NCBI RefSeq assembly: GCF_000473365.1
Contig: NZ_KI421517.1
Coordinates: forward strand, 2,042,745 to 2,106,744
Length of the DNA stretch: 64,000 nt
Direction: 5' to 3'
Origin: Adhaeribacter aquaticus DSM 16391
GTDB lineage: Bacteria; Bacteroidota; Bacteroidia; Cytophagales; Hymenobacteraceae
Part shown: piece by piece, positions 26,282 to 46,667 of the stretch
Position numbering within the stretch: the first letter of the stretch is position 1
Layout: every line of letters starts with the position of its first letter
The notes under the pieces: generated by a model
The model's input: the letters and a program-made list of their open reading frames with translations, nothing else
Databases searched by the model: none
What the model was told of the DNA's origin: nothing
Position numbers and translations under genes: made by a program

Positions 26282-27769
26282 TTAACTCCACAACCTGTCA
26301 TGCGAACGCTTATCGTTCCATTCTGGTGTTGGCCGGAAATAACTTTTATCGGTTTGAATTAAATGCTTTTTCACTTCTTCCTCATTTAACTCTATTCCTA
26401 AACCTGGGGCGGTAAGGGGCACATTGGCAAAACCTTTTGTTATCAAGGGTCTTCCATCAGTTGTACGAACTAAATTCTCCCAATGGGCCACATCGGCAGA
26501 GTGATGTTCCAGTGCCAGAAAACCTTGCGTGGCAGCAGCACAATGTACATTGGCCATTAAATTAACCGGGCTGCCTGCCTGGTGCATGGCCATAGCAATA
26601 CCGTGTTCTTCAGCATAATCACCAATCTTTTTGGTTTCCAGAATCCCCCCGGCGGCTCCTAAATCCGGATGAACAATATCGATGGCCTGCGCATCAATCA
26701 GCGGCTTAAAGTTTTCTTTCGAATAAATATCTTCACCAGTCAAGGTAGGTGTTTCCAGGGCATTAGTTATGGTTTTCCACTGATCGGTATACATCCAGGC
26801 CACCAGATCTTCAAGCCACGCGAGCCGGTATTTCTCTACTGCCTTGCCTAACCGAATAGCATTATTTAAATCAAAATGACCAAAATGGTCCGCACATAAC
26901 GGTACTTCATACCCAACTACACTCCGGATAGTATCTACGTATTTAGCTAATTCATTTAAGCCTTTATCTGTAATCTGAATTTGGGTGAAAGGATGTTTGG
27001 CATTGCCATAGCCCATGTATTCGCGCATGTCGTATTGGCCCTGGGCATCGTTCCAGAATTTAGTATTTACCGTGGTGCCCGCATTTTTAGCCACCATCTG
27101 TATTCCTAAATCCATTTTTAGCCAGGTAAAACCCTGATCCTGCATGCGTGTTCTAATTTTTTCTCTGAATACAGAAATATCTCTATCGCCCGGCGTATCA
27201 GCATACAATCGTACTTTATCGCGGTAGCGGCCACCTAGTAACTGCCAAACCGGCACCCCGTAAGCTTTACCGCACAAATCCCAAAGCGCCATTTCTACCC
27301 CACTTACGCCGCCACCTTGCCGACCATTAGCACCAAACTGTTTCATGGTTTTAAAAAGCATTTCCACATTACATGGATTTTGCCCCAGAAGCCGGCTTTT
27401 CAGCATCAGTGCATAGCGTTCATCCGCAAAATCCAGCACTTCACCTAAGCCATATATCCCTTGGTTTGTATCAATCCGAATGATGGGATTCCGATCTAAT
27501 CCCTGAATAACAGCATACCGCATGTCGGTAATTTTTAATTCTGAAGGGTTAGAGGCACGGCTTACTTTAGAAGTAGTTTGGGCAACTGTATCCTCAATTG
27601 ACATGCTCATAAATCCGGCTAAAGAAATACCACCCAAGGCGGTTTTCTTAAAAAAATTCCGTCGGTTGTCCTGGGTATGCGGATTATTTAACTCTGCTTG
27701 TCGGGCGGCAGCTTCCGTTGCTTCTTCTTTTTTAGAGGCCGCAATAATCTGTTTTAAAATACTTTTCAT
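26282..27769 (-). CDS. Array enolase 1 (group A), Tat-exported
   Basis: A 495-residue enolase-superfamily protein (mandelate racemase-like branch). Its charged 35-residue leader precedes the twin-arginine signal (Arg36-Arg37, then KKTALGGISLAG), so it should be exported folded to the periplasm. The barrel has Lys218 in WLKMD, metal ligands Asp294 (ADHFGHFD), Glu320 (WLED) and Glu346 (GED), an Asp369-His396 pair (HPDL, MHQAGSP) and Glu421. Compared with the dehydratase at 56646, the general-acid His of Asp-x-His is a Phe. Reaction and substrate are unknown. Group A members share LTAPGLG near the end and Gln after the active-site His. It is the last gene of the array. Confidence 0.88.
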   Translation of the reverse strand: MKSILKQIIAASKKEEATEAAARQAELNNPHTQDNRRNFFKKTALGGISLAGFMSMSIEDTVAQTTSKVSRASNPSELKITDMRYAVIQGLDRNPIIRIDTNQGIYGLGEVLDFADERYALMLKSRLLGQNPCNVEMLFKTMKQFGANGRQGGGVSGVEMALWDLCGKAYGVPVWQLLGGRYRDKVRLYADTPGDRDISVFREKIRTRMQDQGFTWLKMDLGIQMVAKNAGTTVNTKFWNDAQGQYDMREYMGYGNAKHPFTQIQITDKGLNELAKYVDTIRSVVGYEVPLCADHFGHFDLNNAIRLGKAVEKYRLAWLEDLVAWMYTDQWKTITNALETPTLTGEDIYSKENFKPLIDAQAIDIVHPDLGAAGGILETKKIGDYAEEHGIAMAMHQAGSPVNLMANVHCAAATQGFLALEHHSADVAHWENLVRTTDGRPLITKGFANVPLTAPGLGIELNEEEVKKHLIQTDKSYFRPTPEWNDKRSHDRLWS

Positions 27770-27794
27770 TGAATAGGTGGTAGAATTAAATTAA

Positions 27795-27801
27795 GTGGTG
27801 G
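27795..27801 (-). promoter_or_regulatory. CACCAC leader element, array gene 1
   Basis: Minus-strand CCACCAC, 25 nt before the ATG and directly after TAAATTAT, a 6-of-8 match to the -7 consensus. A second ACCACC lies at 27776-27781. Confidence 0.45.
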
Positions 27802-27870
27802 ATAATTTACATTTAATAAAAGGCTGTCTGAAGCTACTTTATAATTCTGAACATATTCTGAACTTACGAC

Positions 27871-27913
27871 TTAAACTATAAAAGCCGGAAAATCTCCGGC
27901 TTTTATAGTTTAA
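27871..27913. terminator. Terminator after array gene 2
   Basis: A perfect 19-bp stem (27871-27889 with 27895-27913) with a 5-nt loop, 14 nt downstream of the minus-strand stop. Confidence 0.85.
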
Positions 27914-27926
27914 GGAAGTACTGTAA

Positions 27927-29417
27927 TTAACTCCAAAGTCTGTCGTGCGAGCGTTTTTCGTTCCATTCCGGAGTAGGCCGGAAATAACTTGGATCAGCCG
28001 GATCCAGGTGTTTTTTCACTTCCTCATCGTTCAGTTCAATTCCCAGGCCAGGAGCCAGGTTTGGTACCGTTGCAAAACCTTTATCAATCATTTTTCTGCC
28101 ATCCGTAGTCTTTACCAGGTTTTCCCACCACGGTAAATCCACAGAATGATGTTCCAAGGCCAAGAAGTTTTGGGTAGCCGCCGCACAATGCACGTTGGCC
28201 ATAAAAGAAACCGGTGTACCAGCAAAGTGCATGGCCATGGCAACACCTCCTTCTTCGGCATAATCACCAATGCGTTTAGTTTCTAACAACCCACCCGAAG
28301 AAGCTAAATCCGGATGAACAATATCTACGGCGTGCTTATCGACCAGTGGCTTAAATTCATTGATCAGGAAAATATCTTCGCCGGTAATAGTGGGCGTTTC
28401 CAAAGAATCAGTAATTTTTTTCCAGTTGTCTACCTGATCCCAGGGAAGCATATCTTCCAGCCAGGCTAACCGGTACTTTTCTACCGCTTTTCCTAATCGA
28501 ATAGAATTATTTAAATCAAAATGACCAAAATGGTCAGATGAAATAGGAATTTCGTAACCTACCACGCTCCGGATACTATCTACCACCTTTGCTAATTCGT
28601 CTAACCCTTTATCTGTTATCTGGATTGAAGTAAAAGGATGCTTCACATTGCCATAGGCCATATAATTATTTGGATCGGCACGCCGGCTTATATTACCTCC
28701 CCAGTATTTGGTATTTACAGTAGTGCCGGGCTTCCCATTCAGTAACTCCAGGGCAAGGTCCATTTTTAACCAGGTAAATCCCTGTACTTCGGTCCGGTGT
28801 TTAATTTTAGCTTTAAAGGCACTTAAGTCTTTTTCTTCCGGCGTATCAGCATATAACCGCACTTTATCCCGGTAGCGTCCTCCCAGTAATTGCCAGGCCG
28901 GTACACCATAGGCTTTACCGGCTAAATCCCACAAGGCCATTTCTACACCGCAAACGCCTCCTGCCTGCCGACCATGCATCCCAAACTGCTTTATGGTTTT
29001 AAAAAGCATTTCGACATTACAGGGATTTTGCCCCAGTAGCCGGCTTTTCAAGAATAAGGCATAGCGCTCATCCGCGCCATCGCGCACTTCTCCTAAGCCA
29101 TAAATCCCCTGGTTCGTATCAATCCGTAGAATGGCACAGCGGCCCGGCTTCATTACTACGGCATACCGCATATCTGTAATTTTTAAATCAGCCGGATTGG
29201 AGGCCCGATTTACCCGGGAGGTAGATTGGGCTACGGTATCCTCAATGGACATACCCATAAAACTGGCCAGCCCAATGCCGCCAAGAGCTGTTTTCTTCAG
29301 GAAATTACGTCGATCAGCTTTGGTTGCCGGGTTGTTTATTTCGGCTTGCATAACGGCGGACTGCTCTTTTTCCTCCGACTTATGCTTGGTAATAATTTGT
29401 TGTAAAATACTTTTCAT
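27927..29417 (-). CDS. Array enolase 2 (group B), Tat-exported
   Basis: A 496-residue paralogue of the array. Arg36-Arg37 in DRRNFLKKTALGG gives the Tat signal; cleavage is likely near VAQS. Active-site motifs are WLKMDLAL, SSDHFGHFD, WLEDM, GEDIF, HPDLASSGG and MHFAGTP. Group B is marked by NLAPGLG near the C terminus and Phe after the active-site His. The variable loop at about residues 225-262 differs from its neighbours (GGNISRRADPNNYM) and is the best candidate for substrate choice. It has its own terminator and leader element, so it is probably transcribed separately. Confidence 0.88.
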   Translation of the reverse strand: MKSILQQIITKHKSEEKEQSAVMQAEINNPATKADRRNFLKKTALGGIGLASFMGMSIEDTVAQSTSRVNRASNPADLKITDMRYAVVMKPGRCAILRIDTNQGIYGLGEVRDGADERYALFLKSRLLGQNPCNVEMLFKTIKQFGMHGRQAGGVCGVEMALWDLAGKAYGVPAWQLLGGRYRDKVRLYADTPEEKDLSAFKAKIKHRTEVQGFTWLKMDLALELLNGKPGTTVNTKYWGGNISRRADPNNYMAYGNVKHPFTSIQITDKGLDELAKVVDSIRSVVGYEIPISSDHFGHFDLNNSIRLGKAVEKYRLAWLEDMLPWDQVDNWKKITDSLETPTITGEDIFLINEFKPLVDKHAVDIVHPDLASSGGLLETKRIGDYAEEGGVAMAMHFAGTPVSFMANVHCAAATQNFLALEHHSVDLPWWENLVKTTDGRKMIDKGFATVPNLAPGLGIELNDEEVKKHLDPADPSYFRPTPEWNEKRSHDRLWS

Positions 29418-29618: not shown

Positions 29619-31142
29619 TTAACTCCACAATCTGTCGTGCGAGCGTTTTTCATTCCATTCCGGGGTTGGCCGGAAATAACTGTTGTCTTCTGGATGCAGG
29701 TGTTGTTTCATGACCTCATCGTTTAGCTCCACTCCCAGCCCAGGAGCATCTAATGGTACACTGGCAAAACCTTTGGTATATAAAGGTTGGTTATTGGCTG
29801 TTTTTACTAACTGCGGCCACCAGGTATTATCTACAATTTGGTTGGGCACCTCCAGGGCCAGAACATTTTGAGTAGCAGCAGCACTGTGTACGTTGGCCAT
29901 AAAGCATACTGGTGTACCAGCAAAATGCAAGCCCATCGCTACTCCTTTTTCTTCGGCATAGTCACCAATTTTTTTGGTTTCTAAAATACCACCTGACGTA
30001 CCCATATCTGGCTGAACGATATCCACGGCATGCCTATCGCATATCTTCATAAACTCTTCTTTCAGGTAAATGTCTTCACCGGTCATGGTAGGAGTATTCA
30101 GTGCATCCGTAATGGTTTTTAACTGCTCCGTCATTTCCCATGGCACAAAATCTTCCAAGGAAGCCAACCTATAAGGCTCCATGGCTCTACCCACCCGAAT
30201 ACAGTTATTTACATCAAAATGGCCCATGTGGTCGGCTGACAAAGGAACTTCGTAACCAACAATTTCCCGAATGGTATTAACATATCTGGCCAGCTCGTTC
30301 AAGCCTTTATCGGTAACCTGAATAGCGGTAAACGGGTGTTTGGTATTTTGATAGGAACCCATACTTAAATCAGAAGTACCAAATCCGGGCGAATATTTGG
30401 TATTAACCGTGGCGCCTTTTAAATCGCTGTACACCTGAATACCCGGATGCATTTTTAACCAGGTGAATCCCTGCTCATTCATGCGGTGTTTAACATCCGC
30501 TTTAAATTTACCAATATCCATTTTGGCCAATGAGCCTTCTCCGGAGTTAGGCACATAAGCATATAACCGCACTTTATCCCGATAACGTCCACCTAGTAAT
30601 TGCCACACCGGCACGCCATACGCTTTGCCTACTAAATCCCAAAGGGCCATTTCTACCGCTACAACGCCACCGCCAGCACGCCCGTGGCCTCCGAATTGCT
30701 TTATAGATTTAAATATTTGCTCTACATTACAAGGGTTTTGACCCAGAATCCGGCTTTTCAGAAATAATGCATACCGGGCATCACCGCCATCTCTTACCTC
30801 ACCTAAACCATAAATACCTTGGTTGGTATCTATCCGAATAATTACATTCCGGGCATTGGTGAAAGCCGTACCATTAGAAACAGTAGTATAGCGCATATCC
30901 GTAATTCTTAATTCCGACGGATTAGATGCTCGATTTACCTTGGAAGTAGTTTGCGCCAGAGTATCTTCTATAGACATGCCCATGAAGCCGCCCAGCGTAA
31001 TTCCGCCTAAAGCCGTTTTCCTTAAAAAATCACGCCGGGTATTGCTGGTCGCCGGGTTATTGATTTCTGCCTGAATTGCTGCTGCTTCCTCTTTTTCCGC
31101 TTTCCGATTAGCGGCAAGAAGATCATTTAAAATACTCTTCAT
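29619..31142 (-). CDS. Array enolase 3 (group D), Tat-exported
   Basis: A 507-residue member of the divergent group D. The Tat signal (Arg36-Arg37, TRRDFLRKTALGG) is kept. The barrel lysine motif reads WLKMHPGI instead of WLKMDLG, followed by SADHMGHFD, SLEDF, GEDIY, QPDMGTSGG and LHFAGTP. The late EHHS motif of other groups is replaced by EVPNQ. A group-specific insertion with GEGSLAKMD lies after the RYRDKVRLYA core. These changes surround the active site, so a different substrate or reaction is likely. C terminus ends in the array-wide SHDRLWS. Confidence 0.86.
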   Translation of the reverse strand: MKSILNDLLAANRKAEKEEAAAIQAEINNPATSNTRRDFLRKTALGGITLGGFMGMSIEDTLAQTTSKVNRASNPSELRITDMRYTTVSNGTAFTNARNVIIRIDTNQGIYGLGEVRDGGDARYALFLKSRILGQNPCNVEQIFKSIKQFGGHGRAGGGVVAVEMALWDLVGKAYGVPVWQLLGGRYRDKVRLYAYVPNSGEGSLAKMDIGKFKADVKHRMNEQGFTWLKMHPGIQVYSDLKGATVNTKYSPGFGTSDLSMGSYQNTKHPFTAIQVTDKGLNELARYVNTIREIVGYEVPLSADHMGHFDVNNCIRVGRAMEPYRLASLEDFVPWEMTEQLKTITDALNTPTMTGEDIYLKEEFMKICDRHAVDIVQPDMGTSGGILETKKIGDYAEEKGVAMGLHFAGTPVCFMANVHSAAATQNVLALEVPNQIVDNTWWPQLVKTANNQPLYTKGFASVPLDAPGLGVELNDEVMKQHLHPEDNSYFRPTPEWNEKRSHDRLWS

Positions 31143-31320: not shown

Positions 31321-32844
31321 TTAACTCCAAAGTCTATCGTGCGAGCGTTTTTCGTTCCACTCAGGGGTCGGCCTAAAGAAACTAGTGTCTTCCGGGTTCA
31401 GGTGTTGTTTCATAACTTCTTCGTTCAGTTCTATACCTAACCCAGGTGCGTCATCGGGTACCGGAGCAAAGCCCTTCACGTGCAGTGGATTTTTACCAGT
31501 AGGTTTAGCCAAGTCTTTCCACCAGGCATTATCAACACACTGGTTTGGCATTTCCAAAGCCAGAAAGTTTTGTGTAGCGGCAGCACTGTGCACATTGGCC
31601 ATGTACAATACCGGTGACCCTGCATGATGAAGTGCCATGGCGCATCCTTTTTCTTCGGCATAATCCCCAATTTTCTTGGTTTCCAGCAAACCGCCGGAAG
31701 TACCTAAGTCCGGGTGCATAATATCCACGGCCTGCATGTCGCAGAGTTTCATAAACTCTTCTTTCAGGTAAATATCTTCGCCGGTAATGGTGGGAGTTTC
31801 AATGGCATCGGTTACTCGTTTGTGTTGATCAGCAAATTCCCAGGAGACAACATCTTCCAACCAGGCTAAGCGGTATGGTTCCAACTTCTTGCCTATCCGG
31901 ATGCTATTATTAATATCAAACTGGCCGATGTGGTCCGTTGCCATGGGCATTTCATACCCAATTACTTCCCGTACAGCTGCTACATATTTAGCCAGTTCAT
32001 CCAACCCTTTCTCCGTGACCTGGATACCTGTAAACGGATGGCGCATATTTCGGTAATCCATAAAACCATCATTAGCGCTACCATATCCCGGCACGTATCT
32101 GGTATTTACTGTAGTGCCCGGTATCTGATTATACATTTGCATGCCCGGGTGAATCTTAATCCAGGTAAAGCCTTGCTCTTCTTTACGCTTTTTAATATCG
32201 GCCTTAAACTGGCTCATATCCATTTTTGCCAATGGCACTTCTCCGGAATCTGGCATATGCGAATACAATCGTACCTTATCCCGGTATCTGCCACCCAATA
32301 ATTGCCAGGCGGGTACATTATAAGCCTTGCCGGCTAAATCCCAAAGAGCCGTTTCAACGGCACAAACCCCGCCGCCTTGCCGGCCATGCATGCCAAATTG
32401 CTTAATGCTTTTAAACAGCATTTCTACATTACAAGGATTTTGTCCTAATAAGCGGTTTTTTAACATCAGGGCATAACGCACATCCGCTCCATCCCGCACT
32501 TCGCCTAAACCATAAATTCCCTGATTGGTATCAATCCGGATAATGGCATTTCTGGAGTTAGAAAAAGATTTTCCCAACTTCAGTACTGCATAGCGCATAT
32601 CGGTAATCTTAAGTTCAGACGGATTAGAAGCTCGATTTACCCGGGAAGCAGAATGAGCCACGGTATCCTCCATAGACATACCCATAAATCCGGCTAAGCT
32701 TATACCTCCTAAAGCCGTTTTCTTGAGAAAATTCCGGCGGTCGGCTTTTGTAGTCGGATTATTTATCTCTGCCTGTATGGCTTCAGCAGCTTTTTGCTCT
32801 TCCGTTTTATTGGCGGCAATAATTTGGCTTAAAATGCTTTTCAT
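31321..32844 (-). CDS. Array enolase 4 (group D), Tat-exported
   Basis: A 507-residue group D paralogue, clearly closest to the gene just downstream. Tat signal at Arg36-Arg37. The lysine motif is WIKIHPGM, the first metal motif is TDHIGQFD (His of GHFD replaced by Gln, unique in the array), then WLEDV, GEDIY, HPDLGTSGG and LHHAGSP. EMPNQ replaces EHHS, and the insertion with GEVPLAKMD matches gene 3. No clear terminator is seen in the 178 bp after its stop, so read-through into gene 3 is possible. Confidence 0.86.
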   Translation of the reverse strand: MKSILSQIIAANKTEEQKAAEAIQAEINNPTTKADRRNFLKKTALGGISLAGFMGMSMEDTVAHSASRVNRASNPSELKITDMRYAVLKLGKSFSNSRNAIIRIDTNQGIYGLGEVRDGADVRYALMLKNRLLGQNPCNVEMLFKSIKQFGMHGRQGGGVCAVETALWDLAGKAYNVPAWQLLGGRYRDKVRLYSHMPDSGEVPLAKMDMSQFKADIKKRKEEQGFTWIKIHPGMQMYNQIPGTTVNTRYVPGYGSANDGFMDYRNMRHPFTGIQVTEKGLDELAKYVAAVREVIGYEMPMATDHIGQFDINNSIRIGKKLEPYRLAWLEDVVSWEFADQHKRVTDAIETPTITGEDIYLKEEFMKLCDMQAVDIMHPDLGTSGGLLETKKIGDYAEEKGCAMALHHAGSPVLYMANVHSAAATQNFLALEMPNQCVDNAWWKDLAKPTGKNPLHVKGFAPVPDDAPGLGIELNEEVMKQHLNPEDTSFFRPTPEWNEKRSHDRLWS

Positions 32845-33184: not shown

Positions 33185-34117
33185 TTAGTGGCTCTTAGCC
33201 AGGTAAGCTTCTATGTCCTGTTTGGTAGCCGCAATCTTCTTGGGGTATTTAGCTACCCAGCTTCTAAAGTCATTCTTGATGGCATCGTTCCAGTCCCCAT
33301 GAATCTGGCCCGCTGGATACTTGTTCTGATTTAGCAGCACCCGCTCAAACTCATCCCGCAAAGCTGTCATTTCTGATGCCGACACCAAACCTTCTACTAA
33401 GTAAGCCGGAATAAAGCACACGCCATACTCATTGGCAAATACCACATCACCGGGAAATACAGTTACTTCTCCAATCCGGATAGGCATGTTAATAGAAGCT
33501 GGCGTCATATCTTTTATGGCAGAGGGATGATGACCTTTAACCCAGGCATTAAAACCATTGGTTTCCTTCAGCTCCTGCATGTCCCGGATAGAGCCATCAA
33601 AGATGACGCCATTACCCGTTTTAGCATAAACAGAGTTTCCTAAACTAGATCCTATTAAGGTACCATCTTTTACTTTGCCAAAACCATCCGCTACATATAC
33701 ATCTCCTTTAGTCAAAACATCTATCGGCCAGATGTTGATACCGCCTTTCTGGGAGCGGCCTTCTGTTTTACCGGTTGCTCTTACCAGGCTGTCCAGGTCC
33801 GGACGCGTAGGCATGAACTGCGCGGTGACTACTCTGCCGGTCATGGTCTGACCTGGCTTTAAGATGATCCAGTCCCGCTCTACCTGGTTGCGGTAGCCTT
33901 TCCCGCCCAGATAACCCCAAACCTGTTCCAAAGTACAGTTCTTTAACCGTTCCAGTACCAGGTCCGGCACTTTCGGGCGGCCATCTGCATAGCGTTCCCC
34001 TTGCCAGCGACTGGTTAAGGCTTTTACTGTTTCCGGTGTGGAGCCAACGTGCATTTGGGCACTGGCATAGAATCCGGTGAATACAAAGGCGGCTAATAAG
34101 AGTATGCTTTTTCTCAT
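33185..34117 (-). CDS. Exported RraA-family lyase-like protein 1
   Basis: A 310-residue protein of the RraA/HMG-aldolase family, which includes class II pyruvate aldolases and decarboxylases. I start it at the Met of MRKSILLLAAFVF because this gives a clean Sec signal ending near ASAQ; the reading from 34177 adds 20 residues without function and begins upstream of the CACCAC element. Core motifs are DVYVADGFG, GSSLGNSVYAKTG and the catalytic-type Arg-Asp in DGSIRDMQEL, then FPGDVVFANEYGV. An N-terminal WQGERYADGRPKVPD block is shared by all RraA proteins here. Family knowledge suggests cleavage of 4-hydroxy-2-oxo acids; a periplasmic location is unusual. Confidence 0.85.
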   Translation of the reverse strand: MRKSILLLAAFVFTGFYASAQMHVGSTPETVKALTSRWQGERYADGRPKVPDLVLERLKNCTLEQVWGYLGGKGYRNQVERDWIILKPGQTMTGRVVTAQFMPTRPDLDSLVRATGKTEGRSQKGGINIWPIDVLTKGDVYVADGFGKVKDGTLIGSSLGNSVYAKTGNGVIFDGSIRDMQELKETNGFNAWVKGHHPSAIKDMTPASINMPIRIGEVTVFPGDVVFANEYGVCFIPAYLVEGLVSASEMTALRDEFERVLLNQNKYPAGQIHGDWNDAIKNDFRSWVAKYPKKIAATKQDIEAYLAKSH

Positions 34118-34145
34118 CTCGTGTTTGGTTAGGTGTTTACTTTTT

Positions 34146-34151
34146 GTGGTG
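34146..34151 (-). promoter_or_regulatory. CACCAC leader element, RraA gene 1
   Basis: Minus-strand CACCAC 28 nt before the chosen ATG at 34117, inside the rejected longer reading frame. It supports the shorter start. Confidence 0.4.
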
Positions 34152-34334
34152 AGTGCTACTAAGTATAGTAAAAACACCTTAAAAATGCAACATATACTCC
34201 TGACTTATAAACATATACCTTCTAAACCCAACTAACAAAAGTTTACTAAATTGAATGTTACAAATAAAATTTAGTAATAATAATCGCATAGTATTGCAAA
34301 GAATAAAACCGGACGGATATTTCATTTAAAATAA

Positions 34335-34362
34335 AAAAAGCCGGAATAAATCCCGGCTTTTT
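34335..34362. terminator. Terminator after RraA gene 2
   Basis: A 10-bp stem, AAAAAGCCGG with CCGGCTTTTT, and an 8-nt loop, just downstream of the minus-strand stop. Confidence 0.8.
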
Positions 34363-38317: not shown

Positions 38318-39838
38318 CTAGCTCCACAGTCTATCGTGAGAACGTTTCTCGTTCCATTCTGGGGTTGGGCGGAAATAGCTGTTATCGGTCTTATGTAAAT
38401 GCTGTTTTATAACTTCTTCATTCAGATCCACACCTAAGCCTGGAGCTAAATTTGGCACATTCGCAAAACCTTTTTCAATCAGTTTCCGGCCATCAGTTGT
38501 TTTAACCATGGATGGCCACCATGGCACATCCGGAGAATGATGCTCCAGGGCTAAGAAATTTTGAGTAGCTGCCGCACAATGTACGTTTGCCATAAACGAA
38601 ATTGGAGTACCGGCAAAGTGCATGGCCATGGCAACGCCACCTTCCTCGGCGTAATCACCAATACGTTTCGTTTCTAATAACCCACCGGAGGTAGCTAAAT
38701 CCGGATGAACAATATCTACGGCATGATTATCAACTAACGTCTTAAAACCATCTTTTAAGTAAATATCTTCGCCCGTAATGGTTGGCGTATTTAAGGAATC
38801 CGTTATTTTCTTCCATTGCTCAGTCATAAACCAAGGCACCATATCCTCTAACCAGGCTAAACGGTATTTTTCAACAGCCTTACCTAATCGGATTGAATTA
38901 TTTATATCAAAATGACCAAAGTGATCGGATGAAATGGGTGTTTCATAACCAACTACACTGCGCACACCTTCTACTACACTGGCCATATGATCCAGCCCTT
39001 TATCCGTTATCTGAATAGCGGTAAATGGGTGTTGAGTGTTAGCATAAGAGGTTAAAGAAGGATCATTGAACTGGGAGGCATTAGCTGTATTCCAGAATTT
39101 GCTGTTAACTGTAGTTCCTGGTTTACCATCTAAAGAACGGATAGATAAGTCCATTTTAAGCCAGGTAAAGCCTTGGTTTACTAACCGATCCTTTACTTTA
39201 GCTTTCATTTCACTTATATCTGTAGATTCCGGCGTATCGGCATATAACCGAACTTTGTCGCGGTACCGGCCACCTAACAATTGCCAGGCTGGCACACCAT
39301 AGGCTTTACCCACTAAATCCCAAAGGGCCATCTCTACGGCAACTACTCCCCCAGCGGCGCGACCATGACCTCCAAATTGCTTGATAGACTTAAATATTTG
39401 TTCTACATTACAAGGGTTCTGGCCTAAAATCCGGCTTTTCAGAAAAAGCGCATACTGCACATCTGCTCCATCCCGTACTTCACCTAAACCATAAATACCC
39501 TGGTTTGTATCAATTCGGATAATAGCACATTTTCCTGAAGTACTGCCATCTGCTACCGGAGCATTTTTTATAAAAGTAATAGCATACCGCATATCTGTTA
39601 TTTTCAGATCAGCCGGGTTAGATGCGCGGTTTACGCCTGAAGTAGTTTGCGCCAATGTATCTTCTATACTCATTCCCATGAAACTGGCAATCCCCATTCC
39701 TCCCAGAGCGGTTTTCTTCAAAAAGCTCCGGCGGTCTGGCTTAGTTGCCGGATTGTTAATTTCTGCTTGTATGGCAGCTGCTTGGGTTCTTTCATCTGCT
39801 TTATTGGCAGAAATAATTTGTTGTAAAATACTCTTCAT
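38318..39838 (-). CDS. Array enolase 6 (group B), Tat-exported
   Basis: A 506-residue group B paralogue, longer than most because of an insertion after the signal (IKNAPVADGSTSGK) and a longer variable loop (about residues 235-265 with NTANASQFNDPS). Tat signal at Arg36-Arg37. Motifs: WLKMDLSI, SSDHFGHFD, WLEDM, GEDIY, HPDLATSGG, MHFAGTP, NLAPGLG. Its closest relative is gene 9, two places upstream. All expected metal and base residues are present, so it should be active. Confidence 0.88.
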   Translation of the reverse strand: MKSILQQIISANKADERTQAAAIQAEINNPATKPDRRSFLKKTALGGMGIASFMGMSIEDTLAQTTSGVNRASNPADLKITDMRYAITFIKNAPVADGSTSGKCAIIRIDTNQGIYGLGEVRDGADVQYALFLKSRILGQNPCNVEQIFKSIKQFGGHGRAAGGVVAVEMALWDLVGKAYGVPAWQLLGGRYRDKVRLYADTPESTDISEMKAKVKDRLVNQGFTWLKMDLSIRSLDGKPGTTVNSKFWNTANASQFNDPSLTSYANTQHPFTAIQITDKGLDHMASVVEGVRSVVGYETPISSDHFGHFDINNSIRLGKAVEKYRLAWLEDMVPWFMTEQWKKITDSLNTPTITGEDIYLKDGFKTLVDNHAVDIVHPDLATSGGLLETKRIGDYAEEGGVAMAMHFAGTPISFMANVHCAAATQNFLALEHHSPDVPWWPSMVKTTDGRKLIEKGFANVPNLAPGLGVDLNEEVIKQHLHKTDNSYFRPTPEWNEKRSHDRLWS

Positions 39839-40010: not shown

Positions 40011-41495
40011 TTAACTCCAGAGTCTATCGTGTGAGCGTTTTTCGTTCCATTCCGGAGTAGGGCGAAAATAGCTTTTATCTCTTGGGTCTAAATGCTGCTT
40101 TACCACTTCCTCGTTTAATTCTACACCCAGCCCAGGAGCGGTAAGGGGCACATTGGCATATCCTTTTTCAGTTAATTTACGGCCATCGGTGGTAGTTACC
40201 AGGCTTTCCCACCAGGTAGAATCTACAGAGTGGTGCTCGAGCGCCAAAAAGTTTTGGGTAGCGGCCGCACAATGTACGTTGGCCATAAAATTTATAGGGC
40301 TGCCGGCCTGGTGCATGGCCATAGCTACGCCATTTTCTTCGGCATAGTCTCCTATTTTTTTGGTTTCTAATAAACCACCCGAAGAAGCCAGATCTGGGTG
40401 AATGATATCAACAGCATGCATATCCACCAATTTTTTAAATCCTTCTTTCAGGTAAATATCCTCGCCGGTCATGGTTGGAGTCTCAATGGCATCGGTAATT
40501 TTTCGCCAATGCTCCGCCGACTGCCAGGGCACCATATCTTCCACCGCAGCTAACCGGTATTTCTCCACTTTCCGGGCTAAACGAATGCAGTTATTGATAT
40601 CAAAATGTCCGAAGTGGTCAGAAAATAAAGGAATCTCATACCCAACCGCACTCCGTATAGTATCCACGTATTTTGCCATTTCGTCTAGTCCTTTATCGGT
40701 TATTTGTACCTGCGTAAAATGGTGCATGGTATTGCCATAACCGGTAAACCCAGGTTGATCTATATCTATCCCATTAGCATCACTCCAAAACTTAGTATTT
40801 ACAGCCGTGCCAGGTTTATCTGAAACCAGGTGCAGCCCTAAGTCCATTTTAAGCCAGGTAAAACCATCGACCTGAACCCGCTTTCGCATTTTTTCCTTAA
40901 AAATATTTACATCTTTATCCTGCGGCGTATCTGCATAAAGCCTTACCTTATCCCGGTAGCGGCCTCCTAATAATTGCCAGCAAGGCACGCCGTAGGCTTT
41001 ACCAGTTAAATCCCAAAGGGCCGTTTCAACGGCACATACTCCGCCTGCCTGCCGTGCTGGTCCTCCAAATTGTTTAATAGACTTAAATATTTGCTCTACA
41101 TTACAAGGATTCTGACCTAAAATTCTACTTTTTAAAAACAAGGCATACTTTTCGTCGGCTGCATCCCGAACATCGCCGTAGCCATATATCCCTTGGTTGG
41201 TATCAATCCGGATTACTGGCCAACTTCGGTTAATTCTCACATACCGCATATCGGTAATTTTCAGATCAGCCGGATTGGAGGCCCTATTTACTTTAGAAGT
41301 TGTCTGGGCAAGGGTGTCTTCGAGACTCATGCCCATGAAACTGGCTATTCCAATGCCGCCTAAGGCAGTTTTTTTCAGGAAATCCCGACGGGTATCCGGA
41401 GTGGCAGGGTTGTTAATTTCTGCTTGTCTGGCGGCTGTTTCGGCTGTTTCTCTTTTTTTATTTGCATCTATAATTTGATGGAGAATGCTTTTCAT
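40011..41495 (-). CDS. Array enolase 7 (group A), Tat-exported
   Basis: A 494-residue group A paralogue, sister of gene 5. Tat signal at Arg36-Arg37 (TRRDFLKKTALGG). Motifs: WLKMDLGL, FSDHFGHFD, VEDMVPW, GEDIY, HPDLASSGG, MHQAGSP. The variable loop reads SDANGIDIDQPGF, different from gene 5, which suggests diverged substrate preference. The 172-bp spacer after its stop has only a weak hairpin-like A/T region, so read-through to gene 6 is possible. Confidence 0.88.
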   Translation of the reverse strand: MKSILHQIIDANKKRETAETAARQAEINNPATPDTRRDFLKKTALGGIGIASFMGMSLEDTLAQTTSKVNRASNPADLKITDMRYVRINRSWPVIRIDTNQGIYGYGDVRDAADEKYALFLKSRILGQNPCNVEQIFKSIKQFGGPARQAGGVCAVETALWDLTGKAYGVPCWQLLGGRYRDKVRLYADTPQDKDVNIFKEKMRKRVQVDGFTWLKMDLGLHLVSDKPGTAVNTKFWSDANGIDIDQPGFTGYGNTMHHFTQVQITDKGLDEMAKYVDTIRSAVGYEIPLFSDHFGHFDINNCIRLARKVEKYRLAAVEDMVPWQSAEHWRKITDAIETPTMTGEDIYLKEGFKKLVDMHAVDIIHPDLASSGGLLETKKIGDYAEENGVAMAMHQAGSPINFMANVHCAAATQNFLALEHHSVDSTWWESLVTTTDGRKLTEKGYANVPLTAPGLGVELNEEVVKQHLDPRDKSYFRPTPEWNEKRSHDRLWS

Positions 41496-41718: not shown

Positions 41719-43206
41719 CTAGCTCCAAAGTCTGTCGTGAGAACGTTTCTCGTTCCACTCTGGAGTTGGCTCAAAATAACCAGGAGCATCTTTTACCAGA
41801 TGCTTTCTAACCTCGTCTTCATTTAACTCAATACCTAAACCAGGAGCATCTAATGGTACATTAGCAAAACCTTTTTCTACCATCTTTTTAGAACCAGTCA
41901 TTCTAACTAAATTCTCCCACCATGGCGTATCTACCGAATGGTGCTCAAGTGCTAAGAAGTTTTGAGTAGCCGCGGCGCAATGTACGTTAGCCATAAAAGT
42001 TACCGGAGAACCAGCAAAGTGCATGGCCATGGCAACACCACCTTCTTCGGCATAGTCGCCAATTTTCTTTGTTTCTAATAAACCACCAGATGTACCCATA
42101 TCCGGGTGTATAATATCTACGGCGTGTTTATCAACTAGTGGTTTAAAGCCTTCTTTTAAATAAATATCCTCACCAGTACAAGTTGGGGTTTCAACAGCAT
42201 CCGTTACGGTTTTCCAATGATCCGTCATAAACCAAGGCACCATATCCTCTACCCAAGCCAGGCGGTATTTTTCCATTGCTCTGGCAAAACGGATAGAGTT
42301 GTTCACATCAAAGTGGCCAAAATGGTCGGATGACAACGGAATTTCGTATCCTACTACATCCCGTACACTAGCTACATATTCTTCTAAGCCTTTCAAACCT
42401 TTATCAGTAATTTGCAACTGAGTGAAAGGGTGAGTAGTATTGGAATAAGCCATGATATCCGGGCTGCTGAAAACTTGCTTATCTATCTTCCAGAATCCGG
42501 CATTTACTAAAGCATCCTTCTGTTCCCGTACCACGTGAATACCTAAGTCCATTTTCAACCAGGTAAAGCCTTGCTCCTGCGTACGCTTTTTCATGGTCTG
42601 AGCAAACTCTTTCGGGTTTCTGGCACCAGGAGTATCCGCATATAAACGAACTTTATCTCTGTAACGACCACCTAATAACTGCCAGGCCGGCACACCGTAA
42701 GCCTTACCACATAAATCCCAAAGGGCTATTTCTACCGCTGCGTAACCACCACCCTGGCGGCCATGGTAACCAAACTGACGGATAGATTTTAAAATTTGCT
42801 CTACATTACAAGGATTTTGGCCCAAGATGCGGCTTTTTAACATTAAAGCATAACGCTCATCACCACCATCACGCACATCACCGTAACCATAAATTCCCTG
42901 GTTGGTATCAATACGGATAATTGGCGTACGGCCCACGTTTTGTAAAACGGCCACCCGCATATCCGTAATTTTTAACTCTGAAGGATTAGAAGCTCTATTT
43001 ACTCGAGATGTTGCCTGAGCTATAGTATCTTCTATACCTAAACCCATTAAACCAGCTAATGAAACACCTCCCAAGGCTGTTTTCTTTAAAAAATTCCGGC
43101 GGCTGGGAGTGGTCGCCGGATTATTCATTTCCGCCTTTAGGGAGGCGGCCTCTGCTGCTTCTTCTTTTTTGTTTGCAGCGATAATCTGATCTAAAATACT
43201 TTTCAT
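41719..43206 (-). CDS. Array enolase 8 (group C), Tat-exported
   Basis: A 495-residue group C paralogue, near-identical to gene 10 over long protein and DNA stretches. Tat signal at Arg36-Arg37 (SRRNFLKKTALGG). Motifs: WLKMDLGI, SSDHFGHFD, WVEDM, GEDIY, HPDMGTSGG, MHFAGSP. Group C has LDAPGLG and YFEPTPEWNEK where others have YFRPTPEWNEK. It favours CGT and AGA arginine codons where groups A, B and D mostly use CGG, a sign that group C may be the most strongly expressed. The variable loop (KIDKQVFSSPD) differs from gene 10. Confidence 0.88.
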   Translation of the reverse strand: MKSILDQIIAANKKEEAAEAASLKAEMNNPATTPSRRNFLKKTALGGVSLAGLMGLGIEDTIAQATSRVNRASNPSELKITDMRVAVLQNVGRTPIIRIDTNQGIYGYGDVRDGGDERYALMLKSRILGQNPCNVEQILKSIRQFGYHGRQGGGYAAVEIALWDLCGKAYGVPAWQLLGGRYRDKVRLYADTPGARNPKEFAQTMKKRTQEQGFTWLKMDLGIHVVREQKDALVNAGFWKIDKQVFSSPDIMAYSNTTHPFTQLQITDKGLKGLEEYVASVRDVVGYEIPLSSDHFGHFDVNNSIRFARAMEKYRLAWVEDMVPWFMTDHWKTVTDAVETPTCTGEDIYLKEGFKPLVDKHAVDIIHPDMGTSGGLLETKKIGDYAEEGGVAMAMHFAGSPVTFMANVHCAAATQNFLALEHHSVDTPWWENLVRMTGSKKMVEKGFANVPLDAPGLGIELNEDEVRKHLVKDAPGYFEPTPEWNEKRSHDRLWS

Positions 43207-43468: not shown

Positions 43469-44980
43469 CTAGCTCCACAGTCTGTCATGAGATCGCTTTT
43501 CATTCCATTCTGGGGTTGGACGGAAGAAGCTGTTATCCTTTGGATCTAAATGTTGCTTCATCACTTCCTCGTTTAATTCAATACCCAGGCCTGGTGCTAA
43601 GTTTGATACATTTGCATATCCTTTTTCAATCAGTTTACGACCATCAGTTGTTTTTACCATATTCGGCCACCAGGCTACATCTGGCGAATGGTGCTCCAAT
43701 GCCAGGAAATTTTGGGTAGCTGCTGCACAATTTACGTTGGCCATAAACGAAACAGGGGTACCGGCAAAGTGCATAGCCATTGCCACGCCTCCTTCTTCGG
43801 CATAGTCCCCAATTTTCTTGGTTTCTAATAATCCCCCGGAAGAAGCCAGGTCCGGGTGAATAATATCTACTGCATGGTTATCTACTAAGGTTTTAAACCC
43901 TTCCTTCAGGTAAATATCTTCACCGGTAATAGTTGGGGTATTCAAGGCATTGGTCACAGTCTTCCATTGGTCAGTCATAAACCACGGCACCATATCCTCT
44001 AACCAGGCTAAACGGTATTTCTCAACAGCCTTCCCTAATCTAATAGAATTATTTACATCGAAATGCCCATAATGGTCCGAAGATATGGGCGTTTCATATC
44101 CTACCACACTTCTTACAGTTTCAACAATACTGGCTAAATGATCTAAACCTTTATCCGTTATCTGAATAGCTGTAAACGGGTGCTGGGTATTGCCATAGGA
44201 GGTAATAGAGTTGGTTATGTATTGATTGGCTGCACTCGACTGATAAGACGCCCCATTCCAAAAAGCCGTATTTACAGTAGTACCCGGTTTATCTCGCAAG
44301 GAGTTGATAGATAAGTCCATTTTTAGCCAGGTAAATCCTTCATCTACCAATCTCCGCTTCACCTTAGCCTTCATTTCGTTAATATCTTTAGATTCTGGCG
44401 TATCGGCATATAAACGAACTTTATCCCGGTAGCGCCCACCCAGTAATTGCCAGGCTGGTACACCATAAGCTTTTCCAGCTAAATCCCACAGGGCCATTTC
44501 TACCGCGCAAACACCACCTGCCTGGCGGCCATGCATCCCAAACTGCTTTATAGTTTTAAAAAGCATTTCCACATTACAAGGGTTCTGTCCCAGAATGCGG
44601 CTTTTTAAAATTAAAGCATAGCGTTCATCTGCACCATCACGTACTTCACCTAAACCATAAATACCTTGGTTGGTATCTATCCGGATAATCGGGCAACGGC
44701 CCGCTGTACCTGTTTGCACAATAGCATAGCGCATATCCGTAATTTTAAGATCAGCCGGATTAGAAGCCCGATTCACATTAGATGTGGTTTGCGCCAGGGT
44801 ATCCTCAATACTCATGCCCATAAAGCTTGCCAGGCCAATACCGCCTAAAGCTGTTTTCTTTAAAAAGCTCCGGCGGTCAGGCTTAGTTGCCGGATTATTG
44901 ATTTCCGCCTGGATGGCAGCAGTCCGTACCTTTTCGTCTGCTTTATTCGCTGCAATAATTTTTTGTAAAATACTCTTCAT
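43469..44980 (-). CDS. Array enolase 9 (group B), Tat-exported
   Basis: A 503-residue group B paralogue. I start at the Met of MKSILQKIIAANK: it aligns exactly with the other nine starts and puts the twin arginines at 36-37, while a reading from 45064 would add 28 residues and begin upstream of the leader element. Motifs: WLKMDLSI, SSDHYGHFD, WLEDM, GEDIY, HPDLASSGG, MHFAGTP. Its variable loop is the longest (about residues 232-262, with SYQSSAANQYIT). Closest relative is gene 6. Position between the two group C genes shows that the array was not built by simple neighbour-by-neighbour duplication. Confidence 0.88.
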   Translation of the reverse strand: MKSILQKIIAANKADEKVRTAAIQAEINNPATKPDRRSFLKKTALGGIGLASFMGMSIEDTLAQTTSNVNRASNPADLKITDMRYAIVQTGTAGRCPIIRIDTNQGIYGLGEVRDGADERYALILKSRILGQNPCNVEMLFKTIKQFGMHGRQAGGVCAVEMALWDLAGKAYGVPAWQLLGGRYRDKVRLYADTPESKDINEMKAKVKRRLVDEGFTWLKMDLSINSLRDKPGTTVNTAFWNGASYQSSAANQYITNSITSYGNTQHPFTAIQITDKGLDHLASIVETVRSVVGYETPISSDHYGHFDVNNSIRLGKAVEKYRLAWLEDMVPWFMTDQWKTVTNALNTPTITGEDIYLKEGFKTLVDNHAVDIIHPDLASSGGLLETKKIGDYAEEGGVAMAMHFAGTPVSFMANVNCAAATQNFLALEHHSPDVAWWPNMVKTTDGRKLIEKGYANVSNLAPGLGIELNEEVMKQHLDPKDNSFFRPTPEWNEKRSHDRLWS

Positions 44981-44999
44981 AGATTGTTTAGGGATTTTT

Positions 45000-45004
45000 G
45001 GTGG
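45000..45004 (-). promoter_or_regulatory. CACC leader element, array gene 9
   Basis: Minus-strand CCACC (then AAAA) 19 nt before the chosen ATG at 44980, preceded by TCTAATTAT. It supports the shorter start. Confidence 0.4.
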
Positions 45005-45118
45005 ATAATTAGAATGTTTAGGACGTTGTTTTAAGGCAAATAGAAATATATACCTTAACCACACCTAATATAATAAATTATTTACACCTGACAATTCTCG
45101 GACTCCCAGTAAAACAAA

Positions 45119-45142
45119 AAAGCCGGACAATTGTCCGGCTTT
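45119..45142. terminator. Terminator after array gene 10
   Basis: A perfect 24-bp palindrome (AAAGCCGGACAA and its complement) with A/T tracts on both sides, 37 nt beyond the stop. Confidence 0.75.
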
Positions 45143-45179
45143 ATAAATTGATAATTTACAGGTTATTACCTTAGGTAAA

Positions 45180-46667
45180 TTAGCTCCAAAGTCTGTCGTG
45201 AGAACGTTTCTCGTTCCACTCTGGAGTTGGCTCGAAGTAACCTTTTGCATCTGGCATTAAGTGCTTTCTAACTTCCTCTTCGTTTAACTCAATACCTAAA
45301 CCAGGAGCATCCAATGGTACGTTAGCAAAACCTTTTTCTACCATCTTTTTAGAACCAGTCATTCTAACTAAATTCTCCCACCATGGCGTATCTACCGAAT
45401 GGTGCTCTAGTGCTAAGAAGTTTTGAGTAGCCGCAGCGCAATGTACGTTAGCCATAAAACAAACCGGCGAACCAGCAAAGTGCATTGCCATTGCAACACC
45501 ACCTTCTTCAGCCATATCACCAATTTTCTTCGTTTCTAATAAACCACCGGATGTACCCATATCCGGGTGAATAATATCAACCGCACGCTTGTCGATTAAT
45601 GGTTTGAAACCTTCTTTCAGGTAAATATCTTCACCAGTACAAGTTGGGGTTTCAATAGCATCCGTTACAGTTCTCCACTGATCTGTCATGAACCAAGGCA
45701 CCATATCTTCAACCCAAGCTAAACGGTATTTTTCCATTTTCTTAGCAAAACGGATAGAGTTGTTCACATCAAAGTGACCAAAGTGGTCAGAAGATAATGG
45801 AATTTCGTATCCTACTACATCCCGTACACTTTGTACATATTCTGCCAAGCCATCTAAACCTTTTTCAGTAATCTGAATTTGCGTGAATGGGTGTAAAGCA
45901 TTACCATAACCCATGTATTCACGAGTATCATATTGTCCTTTGGCACCATCCCAGAATTTATTGTTTACCAAAGATCCTGGTTTATCAGCAACTACGTGAA
46001 TACCTAAGTCCATTTTCAACCAGGTAAAACCTTGTTGTTCCGTACGAACTTTCATAGTTTGAGCAAACTCTTTCGGGTTTCTGGCACCAGGAGTATCTGC
46101 ATACAAACGAACTTTATCTCTGTAACGACCACCTAATAACTGCCAGGCCGGTACACCGTAAGCCTTACCACATAAATCCCAAAGGGCCATTTCCACCGCA
46201 GCAAAACCACCACCCTGACGGCCATGGTAACCAAACTGACGAATAGATTTTAAAATTTGCTCTACATTACAAGGGTTTTGGCCCAAGATGCGGCTTTTTA
46301 ACATTAAAGCATAACGCTCATCACCACCATCACGCACATCACCGTAACCATAGATACCTTGGTTGGTATCAATACGGATGATTGGCGTACGACCTACGTT
46401 ACGGATAACCGCTACACGCATGTCAGTAATTTTTAATTCAGACGGATTAGAAGCTCTATTTACTTTAGAAGTAGTTTGAGCAATGGTATCCTCAATGGTC
46501 ATACCGGCTAAGCCAGCCAATGAAATACCACCTAATGCTGTTTTTCTCAGGAAGTTCCGACGGCTATCAGAAGTCTTTGGATTATTAATTTCCGCCTGAA
46601 GCGCAGCGGCTTCTGCTGCTTCTTCCTTTTTATTAGCAGCAATAATTTGATCTAAGATACTTTTCAT
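45180..46667 (-). CDS. Array enolase 10 (group C), Tat-exported
   Basis: A 495-residue group C paralogue and the first array gene after the SusCD operon. Tat signal at Arg36-Arg37 (SRRNFLRKTALGG). Motifs: WLKMDLGI, SSDHFGHFD, WVEDM, GEDIY, HPDMGTSGG, MHFAGSP and the group C tail YFEPTPEWNEKRSHDRLWS. Its last 53 coding bases are identical to gene 8. Arginine codons are mostly CGT/AGA, like those of susC and susD. It lacks a clear CACCAC element near its start, unlike the others; its 193-bp leader instead contains the susD terminator. Confidence 0.88.
   Translation of the reverse strand: MKSILDQIIAANKKEEAAEAAALQAEINNPKTSDSRRNFLRKTALGGISLAGLAGMTIEDTIAQTTSKVNRASNPSELKITDMRVAVIRNVGRTPIIRIDTNQGIYGYGDVRDGGDERYALMLKSRILGQNPCNVEQILKSIRQFGYHGRQGGGFAAVEMALWDLCGKAYGVPAWQLLGGRYRDKVRLYADTPGARNPKEFAQTMKVRTEQQGFTWLKMDLGIHVVADKPGSLVNNKFWDGAKGQYDTREYMGYGNALHPFTQIQITEKGLDGLAEYVQSVRDVVGYEIPLSSDHFGHFDVNNSIRFAKKMEKYRLAWVEDMVPWFMTDQWRTVTDAIETPTCTGEDIYLKEGFKPLIDKRAVDIIHPDMGTSGGLLETKKIGDMAEEGGVAMAMHFAGSPVCFMANVHCAAATQNFLALEHHSVDTPWWENLVRMTGSKKMVEKGFANVPLDAPGLGIELNEEEVRKHLMPDAKGYFEPTPEWNEKRSHDRLWS

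Follow-up and report, generated by a model that had tools for sequence, protein, structure and literature searches.

A ten-member array of Tat-signal enolase-superfamily paralogues with RraA-like partners at a candidate sugar-acid locus of Adhaeribacter aquaticus

The window analysed here, a stretch of 64,000 nucleotides from Adhaeribacter aquaticus DSM 16391, contains ten full-length genes of the mandelate racemase/muconate lactonizing enzyme (MR/MLE) type of the enolase superfamily at positions 26282-46667, each of 493-507 codons and every one on the minus strand. The array is unusual, although the family to which it belongs is widespread; judged from sequence comparison, it has grown out of an RraA-enolase module that many genomes possess. 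On balance, we lean towards a locus for the uptake and breakdown of sugar acids, in which enolase-superfamily enzymes, multiplied in this lineage and exported through Tat, would carry out dehydration in the periplasm and feed shared RraA lyases.

The array and its surroundings

Taken in order, the ten genes encode proteins of 495, 496, 507, 507, 493, 506, 494, 495, 504 and 495 residues: E1 (26282..27769), E2 (27927..29417), E3 (29619..31142), E4 (31321..32844), E5 (36628..38109), E6 (38318..39838, with the longest 20s loop of the ten), E7 (40011..41495), E8 (41719..43206), E9 (43469..44983) and E10 (45180..46667). E9 was listed with 531 residues from an upstream GTG; the ATG at 44983 gives 504, and the protein entered the ten-member alignment from its second codon. 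In that alignment R36 and R37 are ungapped and invariant in all ten, as are D294, E320, E346, D369, H396, E421 and the tail SHDRLWS, which confirms the earlier note's description of ten minus-strand paralogues sharing twin arginines at residues 36-37, metal ligands and tail. Its assignment to the enolase superfamily also holds, Pfam and the residues placing the proteins in MR/MLE near the acid-sugar dehydratases. The Pfam MR_MLE C domain scores 157.5 bits in E1 and 151.4 in E10 (cut-off 29.4) and the N domain 46.7 and 44.4 (cut-off 22), these being the two of ten scanned, and a PF13378 search of the genome gave 22 matches, with all ten array places included and above cut-off.

Three secreted RraA-like genes at 33185-36427, also on the minus strand, lie between the fourth and fifth enolase copies: R1 (33185..34117; 310 residues from the ATG at 34117, start checked), R2 (34386..35318; 310 residues, 42% identical to R1) and R3 (35489..36427; 312 residues, 80% identical to R1). 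The array proposed as tandem in the earlier note therefore stands as ten neighbouring genes but not as an uninterrupted run, being split 4+6. R1, the one RraA-like protein scanned among R1-R4, exceeds the Pfam cut-off (PF03737, 74.2 bits against 24.5), and an Arg-Asp pair, which we take to be catalytic, is invariant in seven of seven aligned RraA-like proteins, including R1-R4.

The genes upstream of the array are all on the minus strand. They comprise a SusD-like outer-membrane lipoprotein (46861..48453; Pfam SusD-like_2, 269.6 bits), a SusC-like TonB-dependent transporter (48477..51707; TIGR04056, 630 bits, above cut-off), the aldehyde dehydrogenases ALDH1 (52321..53892) and ALDH2 (54012..55577; Pfam, NCBIfam), which are 82% identical over 510 residues, a FAH-fold protein (55628..56470; PF01557, 64.2 bits), a second MR/MLE enzyme, MRc2, with a Tat signal and the usual DxHGR motif (56646..57938; Pfam, alignment), the fourth secreted RraA-like protein R4 (57981..58946; alignment), a YhcH/YjgK/YiaL (DUF386) protein (59342..59800; PF04074, 150.2 bits), a secreted DUF4440/SnoaL-like protein (59878..60342; Pfam) and an SBF (bile acid:Na+ symporter family) transporter (60428..61564), whose scores against the TIGR00841 and PanS models stay under the respective cut-offs. 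The NCBIfam matches of ALDH2 include 2-oxoglutarate-semialdehyde dehydrogenase models, all shown below cut-off. Polysaccharide-utilisation loci combine a SusC/SusD pair with carbohydrate-active enzymes. The pair is present here, and a Pfam scan of 11 locus genes detected no polysaccharide-degrading enzyme, whether glycoside hydrolase or polysaccharide lyase. Neither 80 family loci nor the stretches of the congeners showed close homologues of the ALDH and FAH genes, which suggests that the proposed cytosolic end of the pathway is local to this genome.

Gene context supports a connection with sugar acids. The next SusCD locus of the same genome encodes a GntP permease, an HpcH/HpaI aldolase, a hydroxyisobutyrate-type dehydrogenase, an Amidohydro_2 protein and an MR enzyme. 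At 40 of the 80 family loci, neighbours within 6 kb were scanned, which covered 109 of the 128 unassigned ORFs with at least 200 codons; NCBIfam counts were taken at E 1e-40 and not at curated cut-offs. On the sugar-acid side this returned PfkB kinases (10), a KHG/KDPG aldolase-kinase fusion model (3), UxuA (3), a gluconokinase model (3) and a membrane PQQ dehydrogenase model (2); not pointing to sugar acids were sulfatases (5) and models for cellobiose epimerase (5), rRNA methyltransferase (2) and thiamine-phosphate kinase (2).

The twin arginines recur in 131 of 132 family rows, the remaining row having a gap, and precede a hydrophobic stretch; TatC is present in the genome (224.5 bits). From this motif and TatC, we infer that the E enzymes are exported to the periplasm.

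Active site and proposed route

The closest solved relative of the E10 structure model (pLDDT 84, pTM 0.81) is 2qq6 (Foldseek E 3.3e-32, TM 0.86 by target, 30% identity), a Rubrobacter chain titled only mandelate racemase/muconate lactonizing enzyme-like. Alignment to solved chains, together with the known roles of such residues in the superfamily, assigns D294, E320 and E346 as metal ligands and D369-H396 as a dyad; these residues and E421 are kept in all 132 family rows. Galactonate- and mannonate-type dehydratases usually carry a catalytic His two residues past the first metal Asp. At that position the family has Tyr (69 rows), Phe (55), Met (5), Trp (2) or Ile (1) and His in none of the 132, whereas His is present in MRc2 and in MRc1, which lies in the window outside the locus. 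The two members scanned of the ten reach none of the NCBIfam dehydratase equivalog cut-offs shown, with best scores of 193.9 against 311 for galactonate, 159.3 against 550 for ManD and 160.7 against 750 for gluconate/galactonate. On these residues catalysis in the E family looks non-standard and, as the His is missing from all 132 rows, the reaction may be other than acid-sugar dehydration.

Mandelate racemase bears a KxK motif on its second barrel strand. This motif of mandelate-racemase-like two-base enzymes does not occur in the 132 rows, 126 of which read K-x-D and six K-x-H. Since just one recognisable base is apparent, epimerisation looks less likely for eight of the ten members, which narrows the earlier suggestion of dehydration or epimerisation.

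Within the array alignment, members differ in the 20s loop, in the 196-255 segment and at positions 220, 296, 397, 400, 403, 422 and 423; variability in 15-residue bins is descriptive only. Signature sites, picked after the alignment was viewed, are the same or nearly so in E1, E5 and E7 and in E2 and E6, the class of the latter two also taking in E9. The substitutions D220H and HH422-423NQ go together and are confined to E3, E4 and four congeners. The ten members fall into about five such active-site classes, and redundancy is likely within three of these. The 'periplasmic combinatorial battery' of the earlier note accordingly survives in part: Tat-type signals, TatC, diverged copies and sugar-acid context speak for it, whilst 'combinatorial' is unproven and a count of about five classes speaks against it.

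From the genes, signals, metal and base residues, linkage of R to E genes, expansion, divergence and context, all of which are observed, we infer the substrate, reaction, actual export, product transport and division of labour as follows. Passage over the outer membrane would be the task of SusC/SusD, with sugar acids or short acidic oligosaccharides as cargo. The E enzymes would each bind Mg2+ through D294, E320 and E346, and H396, paired with D369, would take the alpha-proton, the beta-hydroxyl then being lost to leave a 2-keto-3-deoxy acid. The secreted R proteins would cleave, or dehydrate and decarboxylate, the products that the E enzymes have in common. Small keto acids would then be moved inward by the SBF transporter and oxidised by FAH/ALDH, probably to 2-oxoglutarate. 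The E classes may differ in the stereoisomers or chain lengths accepted, and, if so, the array would widen the range of acids entering one shared downstream route.

Two other chemistries have to be weighed, each of which we consider rather unlikely. In one, most E enzymes would be one-base dehydratases and E3 and E4 epimerases or racemases, because their H220, at what is presumably the place of mandelate racemase's second catalytic lysine, could oppose H396. The K-x-H type is confined to E3, E4 and four congeneric relatives, and it accompanies an ordinary E copy in four of these four congeners, both of which speak for this model; however, the role of position 220 derives from the KxK motif of mandelate racemase and a sequence alignment, not from a liganded structure, and E3 and E4 could merely bind another acid. 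The other holds that the DH[YFMWI]GHF subgroup might catalyse, in the periplasm, an acid-sugar reaction new to the enolase superfamily, with a single His-Asp base and a mostly aromatic replacement of the second base. Its lineage-multiplied set would read different stereoisomers, E3 and E4 would be two-base epimerases converting acids that the others cannot take, and the secreted RraA step would be shared.

Family spread, age of the copies and transcription

The E family is a widespread Bacteroidota subgroup, mostly adjoining RraA, and is not unique to the array genome. In 71 of 80 loci an RraA gene lies no more than 1.5 kb from the family gene; the earlier note's view of an architecture without described relatives is thus not upheld. 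Dyadobacter, for example, has a single R-E pair accompanied by SusCD. The array genome carries 11 copies and its congeners at most two (8 genomes of the genus, array genome included); the 11th, near a GMC oxidoreductase gene, is at G000:C1:3300552-3302036, ~1.2 Mb from the array. A search of genomes for multi-copy loci, as proposed earlier, agrees with the array being unusual, the other genomes searched having at most three copies each among the best 3-7 candidates scored. The tail SHDRLWS occurs in 71 of the 132 rows, and xxDRxxS is matched by each of the 12 most frequent tails, which account for 121 of the 132 rows; since the tail is common to the wider family, it does not indicate that the array members have been homogenised.

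Pairwise identities in the array range from 64 to 88%, and all copies differ from one another. For most pairs, changes at synonymous sites have reached saturation, so the omega values of 0.04-0.16, computable in 26 of 45 pairs and not in the other 19, are only a rough guide. The youngest pair is E8 and E10 (88% identity, dS 0.65). A quick tree, with SH-aLRT support only, 40 of 140 inner branches open and the placement of E1 and of E5/E7 unsure, joins E3 to the second copy of the four congeners, with E4 as sister to that group, and E8/E10 to 29 rows of other genera. Recent tandem amplification was rejected because most pairs show this saturation and because the ten are split among several wider clades.

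These data bear on gene dosage, a possible but improbable explanation in which largely redundant copies are kept to raise the level of one slow periplasmic enzyme and their differences are drift. The matching signature sites within classes, the three classes of two or three members each and the large invariant core across all ten would suit it. Against this, identities and saturation indicate that the copies are old, the tree distributes E3/E4 and E8/E10 among relatives in other genomes, and the paired change at positions 220 and 422-423 is restricted to E3, E4 and the four congeners.

One long operon across the array is doubtful. Hairpins beating all 100 mononucleotide shuffles directly follow E1 (a strong one right after the stop), E2, E3, E6, E8, E10, R1 and R2 (8 of 13 array genes), those of E4, E5, E7, E9 and R3 falling below that level; among the ten other locus genes they follow two, ALDH2 and the DUF4440 gene. 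Counting both strands, there are 45 terminator-like sites where 20.4 (sd 4.7) would be expected. A CACCAC/CCACC leader within 70 nt of the start precedes 11 of 13 array genes and 3 of 10 other locus genes. Elsewhere in the window 2 of 22 genes have it, MRc1 among them, and 8.5% of random 70-nt stretches contain it. In five further stretches of the genome it precedes 12 of 58 genes, SusC or MR genes making up several of these, and in other genomes 7 of 120 relatives (16 of 130 with ten array-genome rows counted in). The motif of width 16 had an information content of 13.9, whereas six shuffled sets, given fewer restarts, reached 11.4 at most; for both the count and the motif search the R1 start was placed 6 nt upstream of its ATG. 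Leader and hairpins hint at separate promoters for the array genes, although sharing of the leader is no proof of these because the copies share ancestry. A sigma-70 scan gave 28 sites, fewer than in shuffles (47.4); Bacteroidota use a promoter type other than the sigma-70 consensus. A repeat, TTCAGAAT, exact upstream of E1, E2 and E6, was dropped as too irregular.

Distinctly less probable than the dosage and mixed-chemistry explanations is a lyase acting on acidic oligosaccharides or glycosides, in which a glycosyl group and not water is lost. It would explain SusC/SusD without glycoside hydrolases among the locus genes scanned, and the variable segment past the second barrel strand and neighbours elsewhere (the sulfatases, AXE1 esterase (4) and a beta-glucuronidase model (2)) agree with it; yet the sugar ABC transporter that shares a locus with rhizobial relatives suggests small substrates, and we know of no such reaction in the superfamily. 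Inactive or decaying copies, a concern of the earlier note that would make the genes pseudogenes, or an assembly artefact can be set aside almost completely, as the ten distinct full-length frames contain no internal stops, retain the catalytic residues in 10/10 and lie on a single 4.8-Mb contig.

If periplasmic dehydration feeding shared RraA lyases is correct, a reaction known from the cytoplasm would have been relocated to the periplasm in many Bacteroidota, together with a secreted RraA partner. One strain would then offer ten natural variants on one scaffold, besides single-copy relatives, a set that would help in working out how active-site loops determine stereospecificity in the superfamily, and many genes known only as mandelate-racemase-like and RraA-like would gain a testable function.

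Relation to known systems

A search of open-licence PMC papers recognised no described array with a known substrate, as the earlier note had supposed, and no described RraA-enolase loci; PMC4511580, in the part available, concerns menaquinone synthesis. The array enzymes share with the galactonate/gluconate/mannonate dehydratase neighbourhood the fold, Mg2+ ligands, His-Asp dyad, K-x-D (126 of 132 family rows) and ~30% identity, but differ in having no His at metal-Asp+2, a Tat-type signal with a 35-residue n-region, a variable segment past the second strand and the xxDRxxS tail.

In the available text of PMC8563752, a Flavobacterium RraA-family enzyme is reported to be a 2-keto-3-deoxyglucarate dehydratase/decarboxylase yielding 2-oxoglutarate semialdehyde. 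This FlDet pathway resembles the proposed route in that an RraA-family enzyme acts on a 2-keto-3-deoxy sugar acid before oxidation of the semialdehyde to 2-oxoglutarate; by contrast, that text describes no enolase array, and a text search found no occurrence of the word 'periplasm'.

Four rhizobial-type plasmid records (NZ_CP104036, NZ_CP016619, CP140860 and CP140871) hold an E homologue (~49-51% identity, DH[I/V]GH core) whose locus also encodes RraA and a further three MR enzymes. They differ in having a single E-type copy, no Tat signal in the two homologues translated, a sugar ABC transporter in place of SusCD/SBF and RraA some 7-8 kb away.

The earlier statement that such enzymes normally occur as one or two cytoplasmic copies proves too narrow. 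According to the text available of PMC10444878, 80 highly divergent enolase paralogues occur in cultured SAR202 genomes, and a MAG locus (L062) has eight adjoining divergent MR-type genes, six with visible RR motifs. As here, the proposal for SAR202 is that many MR-family paralogues supply parallel routes for sugar acids (PMC10444878) or handle chiral complexity (PMC6946804), so far as the accessible portions of these papers go. Those portions describe neither tandem enolase arrays nor a periplasmic location, and the word 'periplasm' was absent from PMC6946804 in a text search; the present array, in contrast, is formed by one subgroup of neighbouring genes with Tat-type signals and RraA partners.

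Catalytic core of the array enzymes

The ten array genes (E1-E10, window 26282-46667, minus strand) encode members of the MR/MLE enolase superfamily. All ten are intact and, as the earlier note had described, have 493-507 codons and carry twin arginines at residues 36-37 and the tail SHDRLWS; its account of ten genes stands, with the addition of three secreted RraA-like genes inside the array (R1-R3, 33185-36427) and of the remaining locus, both absent from it. The structure of E10 predicted from a 45-row alignment (pLDDT 84, pTM 0.81; low confidence at residues 29-72, which form the Tat region, at 246-253 and at the four C-terminal residues) is best matched by 2qq6 (E 3.3e-32, target TM 0.86, 30% identity).

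A search of genome contigs with the array profile returned at least 579 relatives. Removing nine own-genome duplicates and two outgroups, MRc1 and MRc2 (two other Tat-type MR/MLE enzymes of the window), from the 143 tree rows leaves 132 family rows. All 132 keep D294/E320/E346 as metal ligands, D369/H396 as the dyad, and E421; the twin arginines stand in 131, the other row having a gap. An Asp-His-X-Gly motif is likewise universal, X being Tyr (69), Phe (55), Met (5), Trp (2) or Ile (1). In MRc1 and MRc2, and also in the solved structure 2qq6 when aligned, the third place is His, a residue with a catalytic role in dehydratases of the galactonate and mannonate types. With this His missing and K-x-D replacing KxK in 126 of the 132 rows, the His-Asp dyad is, as judged from sequence, the only recognised base left in those 126. 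The other six (E3, E4 and four congeners) have K-x-H, together with Asn-Gln in place of His-His at 422-423. Epimerisation, which the earlier note had listed beside dehydration, is opposed by this one-base geometry in eight of the ten enzymes; E3 and E4 may differ.

Age of the lineages and copy number

Pairwise identity among the ten is 64-88%. Synonymous divergence (dS) is not computable in 19 of the 45 pairs and is at least 1.58 in 25 of the other 26, E8/E10 being the only clearly younger pair (dS 0.65); omega in these 26 pairs is 0.04-0.16. In a tree of the quick kind, with SH-aLRT branch support only, E3 groups with four congeners (99) and E4 joins that group from outside (100), E8/E10 join 29 rows of other genera, Pontibacter included (100), and E6/E9 join the 11th family copy of this genome and a Pontibacter ummariensis copy (98), with E2 outside (93); E1 and E5/E7 are weakly placed. 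Together, divergence and tree placement indicate that the array holds old lineages and is not a single recent burst. At seven sites beside the catalytic residues, picked after the alignment had been seen, seven signatures can be told apart among the ten, and these fall into about five classes (E1/E5/E7, E2/E6/E9, E8/E10, E3 and E4). Variation is clearest in the 20s loop, which determines specificity in the enolase superfamily, and in residues 196-255.

The window, 64 kb in length, lies in a 4.8-Mb contig of a single genome. The genus search, the sole one in which every candidate was scored, covered eight genomes including this one and gave matches in seven, with 11 copies in this genome against one or two in each of six others; no copy was found in G394 (78% complete). 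Four congeners (G177, G294, G391 and G392) have a compact form, SusC-SusD-R4-MRc2-E-SBF-DUF4440-R1-R2 followed by an E3-type gene, which in G177 lies some kilobases from the rest, and G390 and G393 have a single E each. The maximum elsewhere was three copies in the order (G004; 390 genomes, of which 88 matched and the top four were scored) and two in the family (204, 11 and top seven), the class (395, 9 and top three) and the phylum (395, 15 and top three), the last two genome sets overlapping. Larger arrays could exist among lower-ranked matching genomes or outside the genomes searched. The 11th copy here (L138 9532-11037) is a solitary gene, with another SusCD pair and a GMC oxidoreductase close by.

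The locus and its proposed function

In the direction of transcription, the minus-strand locus runs SBF (a bile acid:Na+ symporter family transporter), DUF4440, DUF386, R4 (a fourth RraA-like gene, 57981..58946), MRc2 (56646..57938), an FAH-fold protein, the aldehyde dehydrogenases ALDH2 and ALDH1, SusC, SusD, E10-E5, R3, R2, R1 and E4-E1. Strong hairpins directly 3' of eight of the 13 array genes and a CACCAC/CCACC leader 5' of 11 (intergenic, window 26232-46860) suggest separate transcription units. ALDH1 and ALDH2 (window 52321-55577) share 55-89% identity per 100-nt block across most of their length, rising to 97-100% in about the last 280 nt, as if their 3' ends had been converted.

Loci were compared for the best 80 of the at least 579 relatives, some of these loci being cut by contig ends: in 71 the family gene has an R gene no more than 1.5 kb away, SusC occurs in 45 and SBF in 31. 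The N-termini of R1-R4 are of secretion type, judged by eye, R1 scores above the Pfam Aldolase/RraA cut-off, and all seven RraA-like proteins that were aligned share an Arg-Asp pair. FlDet, an RraA-family enzyme of Flavobacterium, is described as converting 2-keto-3-deoxyglucarate to 2-oxoglutarate semialdehyde (PMC8563752). A scan of 109 of the 128 unassigned neighbours taken from 40 of these loci gave PfkB kinases (10), KHG/KDPG aldolase-kinase fusions (3), UxuA (3), gluconokinases (3) and PQQ membrane dehydrogenases (2), and also sulfatases (5), matches to cellobiose-epimerase (5) and housekeeping genes. The numbers are of proteins, more than one of which may come from a single locus, and NCBIfam names were taken at E 1e-40 rather than at curated cut-offs.

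As a whole, the evidence best fits a periplasmic sugar-acid pathway, each step of which past the gene anatomy we infer: in the periplasm, the E enzymes would turn sugar acids into 2-keto-3-deoxy acids by dehydration, the R proteins would break these down further and SBF would import the resulting products. The ten copies may instead reflect gene dosage or mixed chemistry.

Three other clusters deserve mention. Immediately right of the window, another SusCD locus (L137 5172-19301) holds a GntP permease, an HpcH/HpaI aldolase, a hydroxyisobutyrate-type dehydrogenase, Amidohydro_2 and an MR enzyme, a set as for sugar-acid use. Window 5835-13248 has the look of a cluster for 3-keto-sugar breakdown: it contains MRc1 and a 3-keto-disaccharide hydrolase domain protein (PF06439, checked), together with what we take to be a DUF6807-like protein, a TIM-barrel isomerase and a PVC-type protein that binds haem. 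From L139 9248 to L140 6607, a stretch of about 17 kb, lie a further four MR/MLE genes, belonging to other subgroups and separated by SusC genes and a FecR protein.

Comparison with known systems

The earlier note knew of no described system with this architecture. SAR202 bacteria have 80 MR-family paralogues, for which parallel sugar-acid metabolism (PMC10444878) and a chiral-complexity idea (PMC6946804) have been proposed. A Bacteroidota MAG contig (L062, CAIJYD010000040.1, 1-11485) carries eight adjacent enolase-superfamily frames of several differing subgroups, six with visible RR motifs, the run ending in one E-family member. Enolase expansion and exported enolase arrays thus both have parallels. 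A locus with a sugar ABC transporter, RraA and four enolases is also conserved on rhizobial and Microvirga plasmids: four records (NZ_CP104036, NZ_CP016619, CP140860 and CP140871; three Rhizobium, one Microvirga), from the ten best of 1176 matching records, hold an E homologue with RraA 7-8 kb away, three other MR enzymes, the transporter and a GntR regulator, and no Tat signal was found in the two E homologues translated. As far as these searches go, what is new is the RraA-enolase module in which Tat-type enolases are a trait of the family, its altered catalytic core and, in one species, its ten-copy array of a single subgroup.
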